Shown here one piece after another: positions 2,382 to 37,144 of a stretch of 37,144 nucleotides of DNA; the stretch's first letter is position 1, and each line of letters starts with the position of its first letter. The notes below the pieces were generated by a model, which saw only the letters and a program-made list of their open reading frames with translations, searched no databases and was not told the DNA's origin. Position numbers and translations under genes: made by a program. Source of the stretch: a virus; the IMG/VR virus record IMGVR_UViG_3300017710_000013, positions 1 to 37,144 of that record; one strand, given 5' to 3'.

Positions 2382-5300
2382 TGACAGACAATACTTGGAC
2401 CCAGCGAGCTGGCATGACCAGCGATACGGATACTGACAATCTGGAGACATACGCCGAGCAGGCCGAAGCATCAAAAGTCGCCGCGGCCGCCTCCGAGACG
2501 GCAGCCGCCGGCAGCGCGTCCAGCGCGTCCGCCAGCTCGGCGACAGCGACCACCAAGGCCGCCGAAAGCGCGTCGTCAGCCACACAATCCGCGTCCAGCG
2601 CCACTGCGTCCGCAGCCTCAGCCACACAATCCGCGTCTTCGGCCACCGCATCCGCCGGGTCAGCCGCCACTTCTGGGGCCGCGCAAACCGCAGCGGAAAC
2701 CGCGAAGACTGGGGCTGAGACTGCTCAGGCCGCAGCAGAGACAGCCAAGACTGCGGCTGAGACTGCCGAAACCAACGCGGCCACCAGCGAAGCTGCTTCA
2801 TTAGTCTCAAAGAACGCTGCGGCCACTAGCGCCTCTACAGCCTCCACAGAGGCATCAAATAGCGCTAGTAGCGCCACCGCAGCGGAAGTATCAAACGTGG
2901 CCGCTGGCGTTGCTAAGGTTGCTGCTGAAACCGCAGAGACCAATGCCGAAACAGCGCAGGCCGCAAGCGAAACAGCAAAGACTGCTTCTGAAGCTGCAAA
3001 AGTGGCAGCGGAAACCGCTGAGACTAACGCATCAACAAGTTCTGCAACAGCTACAACGCAGGCAGGCATTGCAACAACCAAGGCTGGCGAGGCGGCAGCA
3101 TCCGCAACTGCAAGCGCAAACTCCGCCACGGCATCTGAGGCCGCAAAGGATGCGGCGCTTGCTGCTCTTGATAACTTTGATGACAGGTATTTGGGTGCTA
3201 AGGCGTCCGATCCTACAGTAGACAATGACGGTAACCCGTTGATATCAGGCGCTTTATATTTTAATACTACAGACGATGTTATGAAAGTCTATGAGGGTAG
3301 CCAGTGGGTTGCTGCTTACGCTTCTCTATCAGGCGCTTTGCTTGTTGCTAACAACCTGTCTGATTTGGCCTCTGCTTCTGCTGGCCGCACAAACCTCGGA
3401 CTTGGAACAGCAGCCACTACAGCCTCGACTGACTATGCCACAGCAGCGCAAGGCGCACTCGCTGCCTCAGCTACACAGCCGGGTGACTTGGCTACAGTAG
3501 CGACATCCGGTGCTTATAGCGACCTGTCTGGCACTCCAAGCCCATTTGACCCCAGCACGTTAGCGACAGTAGCGACCTCTGGCGCTTACAGTGATCTGTC
3601 TGGCAAGCCAACTCTTGGCACTGCGGCTTCTACGGCAAGCACAGATTATGCCACAGCGGCCCAAGGCGCACTCGCTGCTTCAGCTACACAGCCGGGTGAC
3701 TTAGGAACAGCAGCCACCGCCGCCGCCACAGATTTTGTTGCGGTCACTGGCGACAGCATGACGGGTAATCTGTCCTTCGGCGACAACGACAAAGCCATCT
3801 TTGGTGCTGGGTCTGATTTGCAGATTTACCATGATGGGGATAATAGTCGTATAACCGAAAGCGGGACTGGAAACTTAAAGCTCCAAGCGGATAATTTCTA
3901 TGTTTTAAACGCAGCAGGTAATGCAACTTCATTTGAGTCTGTTGCAGGTGTAGCGACACTATTTTATAGCAATAGCCCCAAACTCGCCACCACCAGTAGC
4001 GGGTGTGACATCACTGGGACTTTGACCAGCGATGGGTTGACTGTGGATGGAAATGTTGGGATTGGGGTTTCTGATCCATCTACTTGGTCTTTAGGCAAAG
4101 CATTACATATTGGCGTTAAGGAAAACAACTTGTGGGGTGAGGCTGACTACGCTTTCCACATGAACCAAAATGCTTACTACAATGGCGGCTGGAAATATAC
4201 GCATACAGATCAGGCTACCCGATACAGTCAAGAGGATGGACAGCATATTTGGAATTATGCTGCCTCTGGTTCTGCTAATGCTGCAATCTCTTGGTCAGAA
4301 GCCGCTAGGCTGGATGCGAGTGGGAATTTTTTGGTGGGTCGAACCTCTACTAGCGATACCGTTGTTGGCGGCATGATAAGGCCAGATGGTTTTGTGCAGT
4401 CCACTAGGGATGGCAACATTGCGGCAGACTTTAACCGTAATACCTCGGATGGTGACATTGTTCGTTTCTCAAAGGGTTCGTCACCTGTGGGGAGTATTGG
4501 GACTACATCTAGTGACCTGACTATTGACGGCCCATCAGAACACACAGGTTTACGTTTTGAGGCAACCGACATAACACCACGCCACAATGGTTCAGCTTCA
4601 AATGGTGTTAACGATCTTGGAGCAAGCTATGCACGTTTCAAAGACCTCCACCTGTCTGGCACAATTAATAAGACCGCTGGTTCAGGTACATTTGCCATAG
4701 AAACTTCTGGCAGTTCGTCAGTAAACCTTAATGCTAGCGGCAGTATGAAGTTTACTGTTGGTGGCAGCGACAGTCATCAATTTGTAAACGGCTCAACAGA
4801 AGCCATGCGCATCGACAGCAGCGGTAACTTGCTGGTGGGTACTACTGCATTTAACCCAGATAATGCAGGTATTGGCGCAAGAGGTTCTGACGGCCTTTTG
4901 TATTCAACACGGAGCAATGGCGCACCTGCACTATTCAACCGTTTGTCCTCAGATGGCGACATTGCCTTGTTCCGCAAAAACGGCGTAGATGTGGGGAGTA
5001 TCAGGGCCAATGGAACTCAAATTGCATATTCGGCTGCATCTGAGGGTCTTCTAAGCATAGGTTCATTTAACTATTATCGCTGGAACACTTCGGAATTTGA
5101 GCCAGTAACAAGCAATAGTCGTGACTTGGGAAGTAGCACATACAAGTGGAAGGATGGCCACTTTGGCAGCACAGTAAACGCAGCCAACTTCAACACCACC
5201 TCAGACGCTACCCTAAAGACCAACGTAGAGACACTGACAGGCTCACTGGATGCAGTAAAAGCAATGCGTGGTGTCTCATATGATTGGATTGAAAACGGCA

Positions 5301-6432: not shown

Positions 6433-6702
6433 ATGATGACTTACTATAAAATGGTAGATGGAGAGAAAATTCGTCTTACAGAAGACGAAACACAAGAGTT
6501 TCTTGCTAAAACTTCTGATAGCAGCTTTGACGCCCAAAGTATGCGAAGAATGAGAGACCAACTTATATCAGAAACAGACTGGTGGGCTACATCCGACCGC
6601 ACGATGACCGCAGAGCAGACAGCATATCGTCAGGCTCTCCGTGACATCACAGATCAGTCTGGCTTTCCGATTGACATCACATGGCCCACGAAGCCTGAAT
6701 AG
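6433..6702 (+). CDS. Tail assembly chaperone-like protein
   Basis: An 89-residue protein with an AAAGGA site. The C-terminal half (residues about 42-88) has the pattern R-x-RDQLISETDWWATSD, then MTAEQTAYRQALRDITDQSGFP and a closing WPTKPE, which is the signature of the Phage_tail_APC family, small proteins encoded beside tail fibre genes. The N-terminal half is variable and AT-rich like the gene upstream, so the two may have moved together. Role in fibre assembly is inferred from family association. Confidence 0.7.
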   Translation: MMTYYKMVDGEKIRLTEDETQEFLAKTSDSSFDAQSMRRMRDQLISETDWWATSDRTMTAEQTAYRQALRDITDQSGFPIDITWPTKPE

Positions 6703-15267: not shown

Positions 15268-15468
15268 CTACTTCTTCGCAGCTTTCTTGGGCGCAGTCTT
15301 CTTCGGCTGCGCCTCAAGCGCGTCTGCGGCTGCGCGGTGCAGCTCGGCCGCTTGGTCTTGGATGATGGTCGCCGCCTGCTCGCAAAATTTGAACAGCGCC
15401 ATGATGTTTACGACCCGGTGCGGGTTATTAAGATTGCGCACCAGCTCTTTGGTTTGATCGTCCAGCAT
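15268..15468 (-). CDS. Small Lys/Ala-tailed protein
   Basis: A 66-residue soluble protein. ATG at 15468 is preferred because TGGAGG lies eight bases upstream; the ORF could extend to 15489. The body is helical and amphipathic (HRVVNIMALFKFCEQAATIIQ) and the C-terminus is a basic PKKTAPKKAAKK tail, reminiscent of nucleic-acid-associated small phage proteins. It is convergent with the ejection protein gene (3 bases between stops) and divergent from 15596, sharing the CtrA-like gap. Function unknown. Confidence 0.5.
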   Translation of the reverse strand: MLDDQTKELVRNLNNPHRVVNIMALFKFCEQAATIIQDQAAELHRAAADALEAQPKKTAPKKAAKK

Positions 15469-15550
15469 GTGATCCTCCATAAATGTCACTCTGGCACCCT
15501 ATAACATTTTTTCGATTATGTGAACATTTAGCACTTGCAAGGGTGTGCTG

Positions 15551-15566
15551 TTACCCCTATGTTAAC
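15551..15566 (+). promoter_or_regulatory. CtrA-like box, divergent gap 1
   Basis: TTAC-N7-TTAAC at 15551-15566 differs by one base from the alphaproteobacterial CtrA consensus TTAA-N7-TTAAC. It lies between the divergent genes starting at 15468 (-) and 15596 (+), with TATAGA immediately downstream and 34 bases from its second half-site to the + strand start codon. Confidence 0.6.
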
Positions 15567-15598
15567 AATATAGACAGAAACAAAGGAACACGGAAATG
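15561..15598 (+). repeat. Shared promoter/leader, copy A
   Basis: From the second CtrA half-site to the ATG, these 38 bases match 34 of 38 positions of the leader of the minus-strand gene at 30487 (30522-30485), with identical spacing to the start codon. Both contain TATAGACAGAAACAAAGG. The shared segment includes the Shine-Dalgarno AAAGGA, so the two genes are likely co-regulated at transcription and translation. Confidence 0.8.
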
Positions 15599-15850
15599 AC
15601 ATCATACAGCTTCACCCCCGCAGAAACTACAGGCCGCAACGCCTTTGACACTGCCACAAAATTTACATTTGATTGCGAAAGCAATCGCGGTGGTCTGTAT
15701 CGCGTAAACGCAACAGTCGGAGACAGCGGGTCAGCTACAGCTCAAGTCTTTCGAGTTCGCGACGGCCACGACGTATGTAGGACAACACGCCTTGGCAACA
15801 CAATCCACAAACTCGCAGTCCAGCACGCTCTGGCCGCGGCTATCGCATAA
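15596..15850 (+). CDS. Small unknown protein, early-type leader
   Basis: An 84-residue soluble protein. It is beta-rich (FTFDCESNRGGLYRVNATVGD, ATAQVFRVRDGHDV) ending in an Ala-rich helix. No family recognised. Its leader is almost identical to that of the gene at 30487 and carries a CtrA-like box, so it is probably switched on at the same time. It is followed by a small GC-rich hairpin (about 15857-15871, GGGGC with GCCCC) before the next ribosome site. Confidence 0.6.
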   Translation: MTSYSFTPAETTGRNAFDTATKFTFDCESNRGGLYRVNATVGDSGSATAQVFRVRDGHDVCRTTRLGNTIHKLAVQHALAAAIA

Positions 15851-15894
15851 CCAACCGGGGCCACGCGCCCCCACAAACTCAGAAGGAGAGCATT

Positions 15895-16443
15895 ATGCTC
15901 AAAGAAATCACAATAACTTTTACCGGCGACTACCACGCATTCGCCGTTTTGACTGATACATTCGAGCAGGCATATGTGCCTAACTCGGTCGTGTCAGCAG
16001 CCAACCTCGAGGTCGGCCGCAAGTATCGCGCCGGCGTCGTTGAAAACCGCCACGACAGATCCGGTCAGACGCCGTGGTTTATCACGTTTGCAGAGGCGGC
16101 CGATCTGGACGCCAGCAGCGCCTCCGAAGATGAAAGTGTATTTTCTCCACTGCGCGACCTGTTTGAAGAACAAGTCGAGGAGGACGAGGTGGAAGATGAC
16201 GCCCTGCCCGAGCTTACAGTGTCTGACATCGTCCGCGCCGCTGTGCCGGAAATGAGTGGCGAACCATTTATCGCGTCCGAGCTGGCGGCTGTTGCTGGTG
16301 TTGAGAATAGCGACGCCGGGACTGTGCTCAACAATATGTTCATCAGCGGTGACATTTCCTGCGCTAAGGTTTTCAAGACAAGCGGCCAGTCCAAGGCGTC
16401 TCAGACGGTCTGGTGCACCGACGTGCGGCGGCTGCTCAAGTGA
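15895..16443 (+). CDS. Putative winged-helix protein
   Basis: A 182-residue protein with AAGGAGAG seven bases upstream. Residues 1-65 form a beta-rich N-domain (ITITFTGDYHAFAVLTD, VGRKYRAGVVENRHD) of OB- or S1-like look; residues 75-105 are a very acidic linker; residues 108-182 look like a winged-helix DNA-binding domain (TVSDIVRAAVP, FIASELAAVAGV, then a strand pair). A DNA- or RNA-binding regulator is plausible, but this is fold guesswork. It overlaps a tiny membrane-protein ORF by one stop-start. Confidence 0.5.
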   Translation: MLKEITITFTGDYHAFAVLTDTFEQAYVPNSVVSAANLEVGRKYRAGVVENRHDRSGQTPWFITFAEAADLDASSASEDESVFSPLRDLFEEQVEEDEVEDDALPELTVSDIVRAAVPEMSGEPFIASELAAVAGVENSDAGTVLNNMFISGDISCAKVFKTSGQSKASQTVWCTDVRRLLK

Positions 16444-16848: not shown

Positions 16849-17060
16849 TGGACGAATGGATCTGGACGGACCCGAAGCGGCTGGCGTGCCCAGAGTGCCA
16901 TGGGGAGGGCACTCTGGAGGAAACCAGCTTCCTGATGCAGTCAGCAACCCGAGACATCGGGGAGCCAGTTATCGAAACTGTGCTTTGCGAACATTGCGGC
17001 GGGCTGGGTGAAGTTGACCCGCCCGAAGATGAGGAGGACGAAGATGCCGAGCCCGTATGA
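16845..17060 (+). CDS. DnaJ-type zinc-ribbon protein
   Basis: A 71-residue protein starting in an ATGA overlap with the previous gene and with GGAG eight bases upstream. It holds two CxxCxGxG-like knuckles, CPECHGEG (residues 15-22) and CEHCGGLG (residues 48-55), which is half of a DnaJ-type zinc domain, and a very acidic C-terminus. It probably binds one zinc and acts as an adaptor or nucleic-acid mimic. Overlaps the next gene by 17 bases. Confidence 0.6.
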   Translation: MMDEWIWTDPKRLACPECHGEGTLEETSFLMQSATRDIGEPVIETVLCEHCGGLGEVDPPEDEEDEDAEPV

Positions 17061-17841
17061 TCGACGTGAAATGGTGCGGCGCATCAGAGAGTGTGCGGAG
17101 TTCGGGCTGTGCAATATCGAGATCGCTCGATATCTGAATATTTCGGCATCGACTGTGCATAATGCAGTCAGAGAATTTAACATTGACGTAGTAAAAAGGA
17201 GTGGGGGTCGTGGACACAAAAGTCGACAGATTATTGAGCCGGATCGAGCGGGTGACGTCGGTCCTGATGGAGCGAAGCAAGTTGCGCGGCCAGCCATACG
17301 TCCAGCAGACAGCGGAGGAGCTATCGTCGTTGCTCGAGGCGTTGAGGCGAGCTTTAAAGGATCCAGAGCTTTGACGCCGCACCAGAAGCTGGTCCAGAAG
17401 CTAAAGGGCGTGACAGACATCAAGGTGGCGCGTGAGATCAAGCTGGGCCACGACATGCTCGAGTTTGAGAAGCGCATGCACATGGAGCAGCCGGATAAAC
17501 GTGGGCCTCTCCCAGTGGCGGAGAGGCGGTCATACAAGGAGACGCACCGCAAGGCCGGAGTGGAGGCTGAGGAGCGCGCTGAGCGCGTCGTGCGAGACAT
17601 AAATCGCCTCATGGATATGTTGGACGATGAGCTAGTATTTAGCGCCACTGAGGCCGCCGCCATGCTCGATGAGAGCGTGCCGCGGGCCGCGTGCTACCTC
17701 AAGCGCATGTGGGAGCAGGGCAAGTTGCACCGCCGTCGCGAGTATATACATATCGAGGGGCGCGTAAAAAAGCAGTGGCGCTGGATGTTTTCTAAAACGC
17801 CATTCACGTTTGACGACTGCTTCGAGGAGGTTTGGGGATGA
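17044..17841 (+). CDS. HTH / winged-helix regulator (possible fusion)
   Basis: A 265-residue ORF from ATG 17044 (GAGGAGG upstream). Residues 7-45 form a helix-turn-helix (REMVRRIRECAEFG, IEIARYLNISASTVHNAV). Residues 56-108 have poor codon bias in this frame, while another frame there (17210-17374) looks genuinely coding. From residue 110 the protein is convincing again: a Lys/Glu-rich helix and, from about residue 205, a winged-helix region (FSATEAAAMLDESVPRAAC, then WRWMF). A TTG at 17371 with AAAGGA nine bases upstream could start the C-terminal part as a separate 156-residue gene. Thus the locus is either one protein with a linker under a nested gene, or two proteins in one open frame. 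Confidence 0.5.
   Translation: MPSPYDRREMVRRIRECAEFGLCNIEIARYLNISASTVHNAVREFNIDVVKRSGGRGHKSRQIIEPDRAGDVGPDGAKQVARPAIRPADSGGAIVVARGVEASFKGSRALTPHQKLVQKLKGVTDIKVAREIKLGHDMLEFEKRMHMEQPDKRGPLPVAERRSYKETHRKAGVEAEERAERVVRDINRLMDMLDDELVFSATEAAAMLDESVPRAACYLKRMWEQGKLHRRREYIHIEGRVKKQWRWMFSKTPFTFDDCFEEVWG
17210..17374 (+). CDS. Nested small helical protein
   Basis: A 54-residue ORF in the +1 frame inside the regulator gene, GTG start with AAGGAG nine bases upstream. It reads as a charged helical protein (DRLLSRIERVTSVLMERSK, TAEELSSLLEALRRALKDP). By my count 40 of 54 codons end in G or C, against 21 of 54 in the enclosing frame, so the nested frame has the genome's codon bias. Its TGA overlaps the TTG that may start the downstream part. 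No family recognised. Confidence 0.5.
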   Translation: MDTKVDRLLSRIERVTSVLMERSKLRGQPYVQQTAEELSSLLEALRRALKDPEL

Positions 17842-28556: not shown

Positions 28557-29978
28557 ATGAACGCCACAACGCCAATCGACAACCCCTTCGTCAAACTGAT
28601 GCGGCGCTACCGCGACGACCCGGTGCGCTTCTCCCAAGAGGTGATCGGCATCGAGCCGGACGAGTGGCAAGTTGAGCTTTTAGACGCCGTCTCTGCCCCC
28701 AAGATCCGCCGCATATCCGTCCGGTCTGGCCACGGTGTCGGCAAGTCGACGGGCGTCGCAATGGCGGCCATCTGGCACGTCTTGATGCGCTACCCGAGCA
28801 AGACGGTGGTCACGGCCCCCACCTCCGCGCAGCTCTTTGACGCGTGTTTCGCTGAGATGAAATCCGTGGCCAAGCGGCTCAAGCCCCCGTTTGACAATTT
28901 GCTGGAGGTGAAGTCGGACCGGATTGAGCTGAAGAGCGCCCCGGAGAGCACGTTTATTTCGTGCAGGACGTCACGCGCTGAGCAGCCCGAGGCGCTCGCC
29001 GGTGTGCACAGCGAGCACGTTCTGCTTCTGGCGGACGAGGCCAGCGGTGTCCCGGAGGCCGTGTTTGAGGCTGCCTCTGGCTCGATGTCGGGCCACAGCG
29101 CCACCACGGTGCTCACCGGCAACCCGACGCGTAACACTGGCTTCTTTTACGACACCCACACGCGGCTGCGGGATGACTGGTACACGATGCACGTCTCCTG
29201 CGTCGAGAGCCCGCGCGTGTCCGAGGATTTCGTCGACGACATGCGGAAGCGGTACGGTGAGGACAGCCCGGCGTTTCATGTGCGCGTCTTGGGCAATTTC
29301 CCGCCATCTGAGGAGGACACGGTGATCCCGGTGTCTCTGATCGAGCACGCGTTCAACAACGAGGTGAAGGTGCACGAGGACACGACTGCGGTTTGGGGCT
29401 TGGACGTGGCGCGGCAGGGCGGCGACAGCAGCGTGCTGTGCAAGCGGCAGGGTCCGGTGATCCACCCGCTCACGGTGTGGCGCAACTTGGACCTGATGCA
29501 GCTCTCCGGCGCCGTTAAGGCGGAATATGACGCCATGCCCCCGTCCCGGCGCCCTAGCGAGATCATAATCGACAGCAACGGCTTCGGCGCGGGCGTGTTG
29601 GACCGATTGCGTGAGTTGGGTCTACCGGCGCGTGGCTTGAACGTGTCGGAGCGCGCGGTGGCGAAGCAGACGTATTTGAACCTGCGCGCTGAGCTGTGGT
29701 TTAGGTGCAAGTCGTGGCTCGAGGGTATGGATGTGTCTCTGCCACGCGACGACGCGCTGTATGCGGAGCTGGCGGGTCCGCGGTATATGTTCACGTCGTC
29801 TGGCAAGATACAGGTGGAGAGCAAGGAGAGCATGAAGAAGCGCGGCATCCGCTCGCCGGACCGCGCTGATGCTCTGTGCTTAGCTCTGGCCAATGACCAC
29901 ACGACGATGGCGTTTGGCACTGCCTCAGCGGGGTCGTGGGCGAAGCCGCTGAGGCGTGGTATTCGCGGGGTGGTTTAG
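28557..29978 (+). CDS. terL: Terminase large subunit
   Basis: A 473-residue ATP-driven DNA-packaging motor. Walker A is GHGVGKST (residues 58-65), Walker B LLLADE (156-161). The RNase H-like nuclease has Asp283 (LDVARQGGD), Asp339 (IIIDSNGFG) and a SPDRADAL motif (433-440). It cuts the concatemer and pumps DNA into the head through the portal encoded ~4 kb downstream. Length and motif order match podovirus large terminases. Its end overlaps the converging minus-strand gene by four bases. Confidence 0.9.
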   Translation: MNATTPIDNPFVKLMRRYRDDPVRFSQEVIGIEPDEWQVELLDAVSAPKIRRISVRSGHGVGKSTGVAMAAIWHVLMRYPSKTVVTAPTSAQLFDACFAEMKSVAKRLKPPFDNLLEVKSDRIELKSAPESTFISCRTSRAEQPEALAGVHSEHVLLLADEASGVPEAVFEAASGSMSGHSATTVLTGNPTRNTGFFYDTHTRLRDDWYTMHVSCVESPRVSEDFVDDMRKRYGEDSPAFHVRVLGNFPPSEEDTVIPVSLIEHAFNNEVKVHEDTTAVWGLDVARQGGDSSVLCKRQGPVIHPLTVWRNLDLMQLSGAVKAEYDAMPPSRRPSEIIIDSNGFGAGVLDRLRELGLPARGLNVSERAVAKQTYLNLRAELWFRCKSWLEGMDVSLPRDDALYAELAGPRYMFTSSGKIQVESKESMKKRGIRSPDRADALCLALANDHTTMAFGTASAGSWAKPLRRGIRGVV

Positions 29979-30487
29979 GCGTTCTCGACCTGATCGACGA
30001 GTAGCTGGCCATTCTCGACCCACTGCTCGAGCGTAAGGTCTTTGAGTTTTCGGTGGTCGATTTCTATCTGGCCCAAGACTTCGTAGTCGTCATATATGTC
30101 TTTTTTGAGGTACGAGAAGACGAAGCCGACCTTGTGCTCCCCGTAAAGCGCGTCGCGGTGTTTTACGCGCTCCAGCACGAGGTGTGGGCACCCGATTGCG
30201 TCGAGTATGATCTCGCGCGTGAGGCGCTTTGGCTTCATCGCCCGCTTGATCGGCACCGCCATTCTGGGCGGTGACTGCGGGTATTCTGCGCCCTCAGCCC
30301 GCTCGCGCTCGATGTAGCGCCTGACGTTAATCTTGGCGATCTCGCACTCGCCGTAGGGTATCTGATATGATAGCTCTCTAGCGAGCTCAAGCGCCTCCTT
30401 AGACTTCTCCTCGGTGTCGGCGGTGATTGCGAGGTACAGGCCCAGCTCGACGGCTTCCCGCGTGTTTTTTGGTGTGTTGTTGTGCAT
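29975..30487 (-). CDS. Unknown soluble protein, CtrA-box gene
   Basis: A 170-residue protein. Residues 1-65 are helical (TREAVELGLYLAITADTEEKSKEALELA), residues 80-170 mixed, with VGFVFSYLKKDIYDDYEVLGQIEID and a final LTLEQWVENG. No family recognised. Its leader is an almost exact copy of that of 15596, including the CtrA half-site and Shine-Dalgarno, so both are probably switched on together. It lies convergent with terL. Could be a host-takeover protein; unproven. Confidence 0.55.
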   Translation of the reverse strand: MHNNTPKNTREAVELGLYLAITADTEEKSKEALELARELSYQIPYGECEIAKINVRRYIERERAEGAEYPQSPPRMAVPIKRAMKPKRLTREIILDAIGCPHLVLERVKHRDALYGEHKVGFVFSYLKKDIYDDYEVLGQIEIDHRKLKDLTLEQWVENGQLLVDQVENA

Positions 30488-30522
30488 GTCCGTTCTCCTT
30501 TGTTTCTGTCTATACTGTTAAC
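30485..30522 (-). repeat. Shared promoter/leader, copy B
   Basis: Read on the minus strand, 34 of 38 bases are identical to 15561-15598, ending at the ATG of the gene at 30487. It includes one CtrA half-site, TATAGACAG and the Shine-Dalgarno. Differences are scattered, so it is a diverged duplication rather than an assembly artefact. Confidence 0.8.
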
Positions 30523-30533
30523 CTAATGTTAAC
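30518..30533. promoter_or_regulatory. CtrA box, divergent gap 3 (perfect)
   Basis: TTAA-N7-TTAAC, a full match to the CtrA consensus, lies between the minus-strand gene (start 30487) and the plus-strand virion block (start 30738). The reverse strand also reads TTAA-N7-TTAAC, so it may act in both directions. TATAGA is next to it on the minus strand. Confidence 0.7.
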
Positions 30534-30605
30534 GCCTACCCATTACAAGCCGTAAAATGCAAAAAACTGGCCTCCCCCACAAATTTTTGTTATCATGCCC
30601 TTGTT

Positions 30606-32176: not shown

Positions 32177-33864
32177 TGGATCTACGTTACTACGTCCCAC
32201 CAGAATTACGCGGCGCCTACGACATGGCGAGCACCGCCGGCAGCGGCATCTACAACTTGCTGAGCTCCTTCCAGAGCGACCCAGTCGGCACGAATAAGGC
32301 GATAGGGCGCGGCATGATCGAGGACGTAGTCGGCGTCGCCACCGACCCAGTGGGCACGGTTAAAGACTTCGCCGGGACAGTTGGCCGGGGCTTGACCTAT
32401 ACCGCCGCCGACAAGTTGATGGAGATGTTTGGCGTCGAGGCCAAAGACGCAGAGCCATATATGCTTGAGGCGTCAAACAAGGCTCTGGCGTCCGACAGGG
32501 CTGCCGCTTTAGGTTCAGTGGCGTCTGTAGTGCCTGGAGTTGGGCCCGCCATTCGAACTGCCAGTCGCTTAGAGGTTGATCCAAATTCGATGGGCTCTCT
32601 GCTCGGGAATGTCCGGCTGCGGCCAGAGGTTGGAGAGACTGAGATTATGCGTGGCTCAGATTACTTCGAGCCTCCTCGGGCTGGCGGTGGTCGCGCTAAA
32701 GACCCTGCGCTGTTTACCCCGTTCTCGCAAAACGTAAAGCAGAAGACAGCCCCATATAATTGGGAGGTTGAGACGAGTTCTGTAGATGCAGGCTACACCG
32801 CTCCCACATTAATTACGCCTTCAGAGATGCAAGGCACAGATATGTATTTTCTAGCTGGAGATCGCACGGCGGGCGGCCGGGAAGTAAGTCGTGTTGGCCA
32901 GTTAAAATTGCAGCGGCCTGTGCGATTAGAGGCTGGCGGCGAGTATATGGACACTGATGATGTGTGGGCATCTCATTCTGGCGTTATGAAACCAAAGCAA
33001 AACGTGTTCTCAAGCCCAGAAAACTTAGGTCGTGATATTCGCGTCGGATTTAGCCCAATGGGCGAGAGGTCAGGTGACTTTGCAAAGCATCAGGGTCAGC
33101 TCTATTCTGAGATGTTATACTCTTCTGAGATGCCGAAGAAGACTGTTAAGCAAGTCAACTCAGAGCTAAAGTCTATTGTCGCAGACTTTAGGCAGAAATC
33201 TCTCAAAAGGCAAAACAAGCAGCGAGAGAAAGATGGCCTCAAGCCACTCACCCGCGTAAATCTTTCAGATATACCAAGCGTGGATAGCCCGGAGTTTAGA
33301 GATTGGTTTGACACTCAATCCCCAGAGCAAGTCAGAAAGCCATTCCTTCAGAGAATGGATAAGGCTGACATGAAGGGGCTAAGCGGTTTGCCGGATGTGG
33401 GTGAAATGCGATTTGCCGCTACAAACCCAGATCTTGTGCAATCTCCCAGCTTCAGCTCCGGGTATCGTTTTGCCACTCCCGATATATCCAGAGGCCTTCT
33501 GTCTGCGGATCATCCCTCATACGACACTAAGCTATCGAAGAAGTCGGGCACAGGGTCTCAGACGTTTGGCGTAGATGTCCCATGGACTATCTCAGCTCGC
33601 GACACTGCCCTGCCAAGACTGGCGCAAGCCGCTCTTGAGAAAGGCACATTTTATCCGGGCCAAAACATGCCGTTTTCTGGCAGATCCTACACGCTGCCGT
33701 CAGATCAGCGCGTCTTCACGATGAACCCGAAGACGATGCAGGCCGGCGATCAGCAGTACGTTGACGAAGCATCCACATATATAGATCGCTTTAATCGTGG
33801 CGGAATAGAAGACGCAACTCGATATGAGATGAACCTGATCGAAGCATATTTGAGGGGGCTTTAA
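32176..33864 (+). CDS. Large putative ejected effector-like protein
   Basis: A 562-residue protein. Residues 1-130 contain GIYNLLSSFQSDPVGTNKAIGRGMIEDVVGVATDP and a Gly/Ala-rich start similar to other ejected proteins. The body (150-480) has no recognised domain and is visibly more AT-rich than its surroundings, suggesting an exchanged module. The C-terminal part (SYTLPSDQRVFTMNPKTMQAG) is again typical. Its 5' end overlaps the transglycosylase gene. By analogy with polyvalent ejected proteins I infer a protein delivered with DNA; function unknown. Confidence 0.45.
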   Translation: MDLRYYVPPELRGAYDMASTAGSGIYNLLSSFQSDPVGTNKAIGRGMIEDVVGVATDPVGTVKDFAGTVGRGLTYTAADKLMEMFGVEAKDAEPYMLEASNKALASDRAAALGSVASVVPGVGPAIRTASRLEVDPNSMGSLLGNVRLRPEVGETEIMRGSDYFEPPRAGGGRAKDPALFTPFSQNVKQKTAPYNWEVETSSVDAGYTAPTLITPSEMQGTDMYFLAGDRTAGGREVSRVGQLKLQRPVRLEAGGEYMDTDDVWASHSGVMKPKQNVFSSPENLGRDIRVGFSPMGERSGDFAKHQGQLYSEMLYSSEMPKKTVKQVNSELKSIVADFRQKSLKRQNKQREKDGLKPLTRVNLSDIPSVDSPEFRDWFDTQSPEQVRKPFLQRMDKADMKGLSGLPDVGEMRFAATNPDLVQSPSFSSGYRFATPDISRGLLSADHPSYDTKLSKKSGTGSQTFGVDVPWTISARDTALPRLAQAALEKGTFYPGQNMPFSGRSYTLPSDQRVFTMNPKTMQAGDQQYVDEASTYIDRFNRGGIEDATRYEMNLIEAYLRGL

Positions 33865-34019
33865 AAATTGCGCTCTTGCTCAATTATATCTTCAATGATC
33901 TCCACCACGTTTTTCGGCAAATCGCCCTCGCGGTCTAAGAGCATAAATGCCAGTGAGTATATGCCGGCGCGAAGCGGATCTGTCAGATCCAATTCGCCAT
34001 CTGTATTATTTTTATCCAT
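33861..34019 (-). CDS. Small acidic protein
   Basis: A 52-residue ORF with GGGAGG nine bases upstream. Acidic and helical (LAFMLLDREGDLPKNVVEIIEDIIEQE). It converges with the ejected protein gene, overlapping its stop by four bases, and diverges from the portal gene with a CtrA box between. Function unknown. Good ribosome site and shared promoter region support it, despite its small size. Confidence 0.6.
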   Translation of the reverse strand: MDKNNTDGELDLTDPLRAGIYSLAFMLLDREGDLPKNVVEIIEDIIEQERNF

Positions 34020-34050
34020 AGTGTTATCCTCCCAGTTGAAGCCTCAACAG

Positions 34051-34065
34051 TTAACACAGTGTTAA
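34051..34065 (+). promoter_or_regulatory. CtrA box, divergent gap 4 (perfect core)
   Basis: TTAA-N7-TTAA, followed by A instead of C, lies between the small acidic gene (start 34019, minus) and the portal gene (34090, plus). Distance to the portal ATG is 25 bases from the end of the box, so it may overlap the -10 or -35 region. It resembles box 2 in its central bases. Confidence 0.7.
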
Positions 34066-34089
34066 ACAAAGCGCAAGAAGGGCCATAAG

Positions 34090-36466: not shown

Positions 36467-37144
36467 ATGGCAGATAACAACACCCCGCAAGGGATTGGGT
36501 TGTCAGAAGCACAAAATGCAATCAGCGCCATGATGGCACCCTCGCAAGAGGACAATGCTCCAGAGGCTGATGCGCTACAGGTCGAAGACACAGAATATGT
36601 GGAAGAGGCCGAAATGTCGGATGACGCAGGCGAAGAGCAATCTTTTGACGCAGAGGCCGACGATCTTGAAGGCGAGGAAATCGAGGACGAGGACCAAGAC
36701 CAATCTCAAGAAGGCGACATCCTCGCGGCTACGGTCGAAGTGGATGGCGAGGAGATCACGGTCGAGGAAGCCCGAAACGGTTATCTGAGGCAGAGAGATT
36801 ACACCCGCAAGACGCAGGCGCTGGCTGAGAAGACGAAAGAGGTCTCCGCAGTTCAGTCTGAGTTGGACCGGGAACGTGCACAGTATGCTGAGCTGTTACC
36901 GCAAATTGCGGAGCAGTTGAAGCAATCGGTAGAGGCCGAGCCAGACTGGGATACTCTGTATGACACGGACCCCGCTTTGGCCGCGAAGGCTGAACGGCAA
37001 TGGCGGAAACAGTTAGAGCAGAAGCAAATGCAGATGCAGGCTGTGACGCAAGAGCAGGCGCGATTGAACGAGTTGCAACAACAAAGAATGCAACAAGCGA
37101 AGGCGCAGTTCGTGGAGCAGCAGCGGGAAATACTCCCCGACCTA
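36467..37144 (+). CDS. Capsid scaffolding protein, N-terminal part
   Basis: The 5' part (226 codons to the window end, of which the last 41 repeat the start of the window). N-terminal part is Asp/Glu-rich (residues 27-92) with a segment AATVEVDGEEITVEEARNGYLRQRDYTRKTQ (about 94-124, quoted in parts) that is typical of phage capsid scaffolds of this group, followed by coiled coils. It runs in frame into position 1. Together it makes 337 residues. AGGAG is six bases before ATG. Confidence 0.75.
   Translation, partial: MADNNTPQGIGLSEAQNAISAMMAPSQEDNAPEADALQVEDTEYVEEAEMSDDAGEEQSFDAEADDLEGEEIEDEDQDQSQEGDILAATVEVDGEEITVEEARNGYLRQRDYTRKTQALAEKTKEVSAVQSELDRERAQYAELLPQIAEQLKQSVEAEPDWDTLYDTDPALAAKAERQWRKQLEQKQMQMQAVTQEQARLNELQQQRMQQAKAQFVEQQREILPDL
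37022..37144. repeat. Terminal overlap, copy 2
   Basis: Identical to positions 1-123. The frame of the scaffold gene continues across the join without change, which supports a circular map. Confidence 0.9.

Follow-up and report, generated by a model that had tools for sequence, protein, structure and literature searches.

Why should two genes that lie far apart in a phage genome, on opposite strands and unrelated to each other, be preceded by nearly the same promoter and leader? The question arises in a window of 37,144 nucleotides, by which we mean the whole stretch of DNA that was analyzed. It is an entire IMG/VR virus record (IMGVR_UViG_3300017710_000013), and a 123-bp direct terminal repeat with identical copies at 1-123 and 37022-37144 suggests that the record is a complete genome. 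Within it, positions 15561-15598 (+), GTTAACAATATAGACAGAAACAAAGGAACACGGAAATG, agree with 30522-30485 (-), GTTAACAGTATAGACAGAAACAAAGGAGAACGGACATG, at 34 of 38 positions without gaps, and the distance to the ATG is equal in both 38-mers, just as the first-pass annotation had stated. The annotation had also taken the two first genes to be unrelated, and they do fall into separate BLASTP clusters at E 1e-2, with no family match for either. A chance match is ruled out by the second-best match to either 38-mer in the window, which reaches 22-23/38, and by the expectation from base composition of about 2e-7 such pairs. The match is short and its source metagenomic, as would suit a chance similarity or an artefact of assembly or duplication; set against this expectation and against the recurrence of these leaders at fixed loci in dozens of contigs from numerous samples, such an origin is vanishingly improbable.

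The similarity reaches further upstream than the first-pass annotation saw, since the two sites form the arms (15527-15598 and 30485-30556, 72 nt, 75% identity) of an inverted repeat, the only dispersed one reaching 24 nt in the window (seed 14). From the -35-like TTG through the ATG, 49 of 64 positions agree between the two sites, which we call A and B. The elements read from the sequence there, and at a third promoter of similar layout, are the following.

15527-15598 (+): leader A with promoter, operator-like box, 5' UTR and start codon; inverted-repeat arm, at a locus conserved in relatives
15535-15540 (+): -35-like TTGCAA, 17-nt spacer to the -10, at the constant TTG-box spacing
15550-15566 (+): CtrA-type box GTTACCCCTATGTTAAC, with TTAC-N7-TTAA at 15551-15565 (7/8)
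15558-15563 (+): -10-like TATGTT, within box A
15569-15595 (+): putative transcribed leader TATAGACAGAAACAAAGGAACACGGAA with Shine-Dalgarno AAAGGA, common to four promoter classes
30485-30556 (-): leader B with promoter, operator-like box, 5' UTR and start codon; inverted-repeat arm
30543-30548 (-): -35-like TTGTAA, 17 nt to the -10
30517-30533 (-): CtrA-type box GTTAACATTAGGTTAAC, with the full TTAA-N7-TTAA at 30532-30518, one of two full sites in the window
30520-30525 (-): -10-like TAGGTT
30488-30514 (-): putative transcribed leader TATAGACAGAAACAAAGGAGAACGGAC
34048-34076 (-): third promoter of like layout, TTGCGC-N17-TAACTG with TTAACACTGTGTTAA, lacking the shared 5' UTR
33861-34019 (-): ORF of 52 aa following the third promoter, upstream of the portal gene

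Both sites carry a sigma-70-like promoter, TTG(C/T)AA-N17-TA(T/G)GTT, whose spacer and -10 are spanned by a box of the form GTTA(A/C)C-N5-GTTAAC, placed at roughly -20 to -4 relative to the presumed start. The box fits TTAA-N7-TTAA, the consensus site of CtrA, a regulator of Alphaproteobacteria, with no mismatch at B and one at A, and what had been annotated as a CtrA half-site is the right half of this two-half box. Downstream lies a 27-nt leader and ribosome-binding site with the consensus TATAGACAGAAACAAAGGA...AC followed by ATG, again with AAAGGA as Shine-Dalgarno sequence. RNA polymerase would start near 15570 at A and 30513 at B, giving a 26-nt 5' UTR. This register was weighed against one that takes TATAGA as the -10. 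The distance from TTG to box is 15 in 64/64 A/B entries in which TTGNA was found, whereas that from box to TATA ranges from 1 to 3 among the A/B entries and that from box to ATG is more variable still. Because the TTG-box distance is constant and the box-TATA distance is not, TTG-N17-TANNTT is favored and TATAGA, with its unfixed spacing to the box, disfavored. Scored against the E. coli sigma-70 consensus, the promoter reaches 8/12 at A and fewer at B, which is below the scan threshold. Searches for a structured RNA, riboswitch or tRNA returned zero Rfam or tRNA matches.

The same arrangement recurs in relatives, which are metagenomic contigs throughout. The exact leader was found in 12 viral contigs and a looser form in 65 stretches, counts that are biased because the patterns that retrieved many of the loci included a portion of the leader; the unbiased set comes from protein-based searches, and it includes L064, L133 and loci of a promoter class X (see below) without the box. 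Exactly one leader copy per strand is present in 6 of the 14 records searched and also in G009. In contigs with flanks, locus A adjoins a divergent small gene (15268-15489) and lies upstream of a DUF6378 gene, and locus B is flanked by the 30705 gene and terL. The match is thus a real promoter and leader that is conserved in relatives, where the first-pass annotation had named lack of conservation as grounds for refutation. Its further suggestion of a regulon, made for host-takeover genes, is partly borne out: it holds for the two sites, to which the third, weaker promoter of like layout at 34076-34048 (-) can be added; in L049 and L069 a different small gene stands behind that promoter.

Conservation does not extend equally to all parts of the leader. 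A distant relative (L085), with flanking proteins 46-47% identical, keeps promoter and box and has a different 5' UTR, as does copy B of G010 with its box. Leader B of L013 and L022 likewise retains the box, and the 5' UTR is swapped for TATAGCCGAGGCAATCCC... ahead of a MAHSLSF gene. At site A of L095, two complete leader units stand in tandem on one strand (5226-5252 and 6473-6499), each with its own gene. Inversion between the two inverted leaders was considered and rejected: the copies lie on opposite strands in every two-copy record, and no inverted arrangement was seen.

Around these leaders, the window contains the following genes and signals.

15596-15850 (+): first gene at site A (84 aa, ORFan), swappable; unrelated genes take its place in relatives between near-identical flanks
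15857-15871 (+): GC hairpin GGGGCCACGCGCCCC, 6 nt past the stop codon; marks the right-hand end of the exchanged unit
15895-16443 (+): second gene of block A (182 aa), with 99-100% identity between close relatives that differ in the first gene
17008-17841 (+): HTH_23 protein of block A from profile search, a candidate phage regulator
23061-23855 (+): PDDEXK exonuclease-like protein (DUF3799) from profile search
29975-30487 (-): gene behind leader B (170 aa, ORFan), resident next to terL

What differs between close relatives is the first gene. The window and L010 share a left flank that is 100% identical as far as the leader; from the start codon on their genes are different, and identity returns at the hairpin. 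Twelve unrelated families of first genes were counted in the first contig set and about 20 small ORFan families in the larger sets, and three of them, AIAYG, MKVFDF and MILKM, are found at both A and B. At site B, relatives have other genes inserted ahead of the 170-aa resident gene: the window holds the resident gene only, whereas in L011 (G006) this leader and this resident gene are separated by an AIAYG ORF with its hairpin.

Downstream of most first genes, no more than about 10 nt from the stop, stands a GC hairpin, often with a UNCG loop. Its typical form is GGGGGC-loop-GCCCCC at A and GGGGAGC-loop-GCTCCCC at B, one stem pair being altered on both strands of the stem. In the AIAYG, MKVFDF and MILKM families the hairpin tracks the site and not the gene, with the exception of L071, and in the nine contig pieces scanned, G-rich hairpins of such form occur only at first-gene junctions. 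As it has no T run, the hairpin is not a canonical terminator. The swapped unit, as delimited by these comparisons, begins in the leader and ends at the hairpin just past the stop.

Since relatives place different small genes behind it, the shared sequence appears as a standard socket for exchangeable genes. On balance, we consider it probable that each copy is a regulated promoter joined to a standard translation leader, which together with the 3' hairpin would constitute a socket for the exchange of small accessory genes. Interchangeable genes bounded by leader and 3' hairpin were not foreseen by the first-pass annotation, and this exchange socket is the main point of the present analysis. 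The promoter register, the box, the 27-nt leader, the two fixed loci, the changing first gene, the shared gene pool and the exchange borders can all be read from the DNA itself. Exchange would likely proceed by homologous recombination through the short homologies of leader and hairpin, perhaps aided by phage recombination genes; a recombination function of the DUF3799 protein, which could support exchange, is possible. An integron seems unlikely, because no integrase was matched among the window proteins submitted to Pfam/PHROGs (a subset of the ORFs) and the hairpin, with 15-18 nt, is far shorter than the attC sites of integron cassettes.

Phage genomes are mosaics with breaks at gene borders, and both leader and hairpin have evident expression roles. 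One could therefore dispense with an exchange system altogether and see in the two elements conserved expression signals, with genes turned over by illegitimate recombination and selection for intact signals. Such an account has difficulty with the same families in the same format at both sites and in several lineages, with a module that is about 100% identical including its 5' UTR and falls to 15-45% identity beyond, and with site-specific hairpins, which imply crossovers at the hairpin. We regard it as unlikely and retain the exchange socket.

A search with the MILKM-family protein offers a test that is independent of leader patterns. The same leader and MILKM gene also occur with a different promoter, TTGCAA-N17-TATATG, and two TTGCTAGCAA palindromes. 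Comparing the MILKM modules of L136 and L134, identity is essentially 100% from leader through ORF, then drops to 85% immediately after the stop codon and to 15-45% beyond the module. In a leader-only scan, four promoter classes share leader and hairpin (41, 8, 7 and 3 distinct stretches), and 8 of 21 gene families stand behind more than one class. The other lineages keep the promoter register, with TTGCAA-N17-TATATG, TTGACA-N17-TACATT and TTTACA-N17-TAGTGT; class X records have a single leader copy. TTAA-N7-TTAA is absent from the class X, Y and W loci examined, and their spacer sequences differ. With three other lineages combining the same leader with other sequences at the operator position, the shared leader is not defined by the CtrA-like box. 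The 38-bp match, with the same leader standing behind four promoter classes, reads as a junction of two parts, a leader common to several lineages and a promoter whose operator is peculiar to its lineage. More tentatively, and at less than even odds, several marine phage lineages might share a plug-in format of 27-nt leader and GC hairpin that lets anti-defense ORFs move from site to site and from lineage to lineage, each lineage with its own operator, which here would respond to CtrA, the cell-cycle regulator of the host. Paired TTGCTAGCAA palindromes, one of them in the promoter spacer, were observed at L134:4923-4960 and L143:431-465; both carry a MILKM gene, in L134 with the shared leader.

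Several properties of the genome bear on its host. GANTC, the site of CcrM in Alphaproteobacteria, occurs 6 times in the window compared with 141 expected, a 24-fold avoidance; it is avoided in relatives too, and GATC is not avoided. Portal and capsid protein are SU10-type according to Pfam/PHROGs profile searches, and the relatives of the portal include phages of Sinorhizobium, Rhizobium, Octadecabacter and Sulfitobacter, but other groups as well. The phage may be alphaproteobacterial. The leader pattern had zero matches in 84,980 genomes, and TerL matched only MAG contigs of unrelated taxa. Two TerL relatives (84-85%), L151 and L152, sit in MAG contigs assigned to Opitutae and Desulfuromonadales; these are likely to be phage contigs that were mis-binned.

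Which protein would read the box in this lineage? Full TTAA-N7-TTAA sites number two in the window against 0.12 expected, a count reached in 1/100 shuffles, and both lie in promoters, namely B and the third promoter. CtrA binds this motif and controls genes in alphaproteobacterial phages, both activating and repressing (PMC9437464). A regulator would sit on the box and, judged by position, block the promoter: in CtrA-induced promoters the site lies mostly at -35, while sites at the -10 repress, as in ctrA P1 and hemE (PMC11264516), so the position of the box suggests repression. We are evenly divided on whether this regulator is host CtrA, the other option being a repressor encoded by the phage, for instance the HTH protein at 17008-17841. 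Given that classes X, Y and W lack TTAA-N7-TTAA, CtrA could act in one lineage at most.

An activating role was also considered, in which CtrA~P on the box recruits RNA polymerase to TATAGA as the -10 and couples the genes to the cell cycle of the host, in line with a proposal for phiCbK genes. The motif is present, TATA is well conserved 3' of the box, and CtrA activates CbK gp5 and gp18 (PMC9437464). With TATAGA as the -10, however, the box would fall at about -31 to -15, in contrast to the site mostly at -35 in CtrA-induced promoters (PMC11264516), the box-TATA spacing is not fixed, and the TTG at -35 with its 17-nt spacing is kept even where the box is missing. Activation by CtrA hence seems improbable.

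Instead, the box could serve as operator for a repressor or autoregulator that the phage itself encodes, the HTH_23 protein of block A being one candidate, and the likeness of the box to a CtrA site would be incidental. Unrelated palindromes at the same place in other lineages make this a strong rival: a different palindrome, TTGCTAGCAA in two copies, occupies the same scaffold elsewhere, as expected if each lineage had its own repressor. Yet the half-sites, 11 bp apart, deviate from TTAA-N7-TTAA by at most one mismatch in every variant listed, a sharp fit to a host response-regulator site, and homologues of the HTH protein also occur in class Y, which has no box. We give a phage repressor appreciable weight, short of an even chance.

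Among known systems, mobile regulatory cassettes named PeSL/PeSLI were reportedly described in T4-type phages by Arbiol in 2010 and Comeau in 2014. In the portion of the literature covered here, T4 PeSLs resemble the present case in that a repeated promoter with a stem-loop accompanies unrelated accessory ORFs shuffled between related phages, and they are portrayed as composite promoter-terminator units in many copies within intensely shuffled regions (PMC4503421). As far as that account goes, our elements differ in having two fixed sites per genome, a CtrA-type box and a leader common to several lineages; the stem-loop lies 3' of the exchanged ORF, past the stop, apart from the promoter and without a T run, there is no composite of T4-type early promoter and terminator, and portal and capsid belong to the SU10 type.

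CtrA-controlled genes of alphaproteobacterial phages similarly have TTAA-N7-TTAA boxes in intergenic promoter regions (Mascolo 2022, PMC9437464). In those pili- and flagellotropic phages the sites cluster in terminal repeats or gap regions, whereas here single boxes lie over the -10 of two or three promoters in small SU10-portal phages; these promoters are separate from one another, close to genes, and lie outside the 123-bp terminal repeat. The SAS/ESAS elements of Cluster K mycobacteriophages are likewise short conserved sequences beside the start codons of unrelated small genes (PMC3203893). The SAS has 13 bp (GGGATAGGAGCCC) and many copies per genome, with a proposed role in translation initiation rather than as promoter (PMC3203893), in contrast to the different leader sequence and two copies per genome found here. 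In archaeal viruses, too, near-identical regulatory sequences, there with TATA/BRE promoters, precede small, variable and mutually unrelated accessory genes; early expression and an anti-defense function were demonstrated for some of them, and conserved regulatory sequences predicted anti-defense genes (PMC11065993).

The cargo itself gave few clues by homology. For the first genes, Pfam, PHROGs and NCBIfam yielded only sub-threshold noise and PDB sequence searches zero significant matches; AlphaFold models of AIAYG (a small beta protein, pLDDT 72) and of the 170-aa protein (pLDDT 74) had zero significant PDB fold matches, and the leader found no convincing match in annotated phage records. 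Small size, variability and the lack of family matches fit an anti-defense or host-takeover profile, and we lean slightly toward the view that the cargo consists mostly of early proteins of this kind. Leader and hairpin offer a search handle that retrieves about 20 unannotated small-gene families from viral metagenomes, likely candidates for anti-defense or host takeover. Single-ORF exchange between phages by way of standard expression signals becomes directly testable, as does the question whether a phage puts such cargo under host CtrA. The 170-aa protein at 29975-30487 has the look of a fusion. Its first 64 aa are found on their own in L003, L006 and L008, and residues 85-170, the C-terminal half, are present singly or as a tandem pair in L025-L029.
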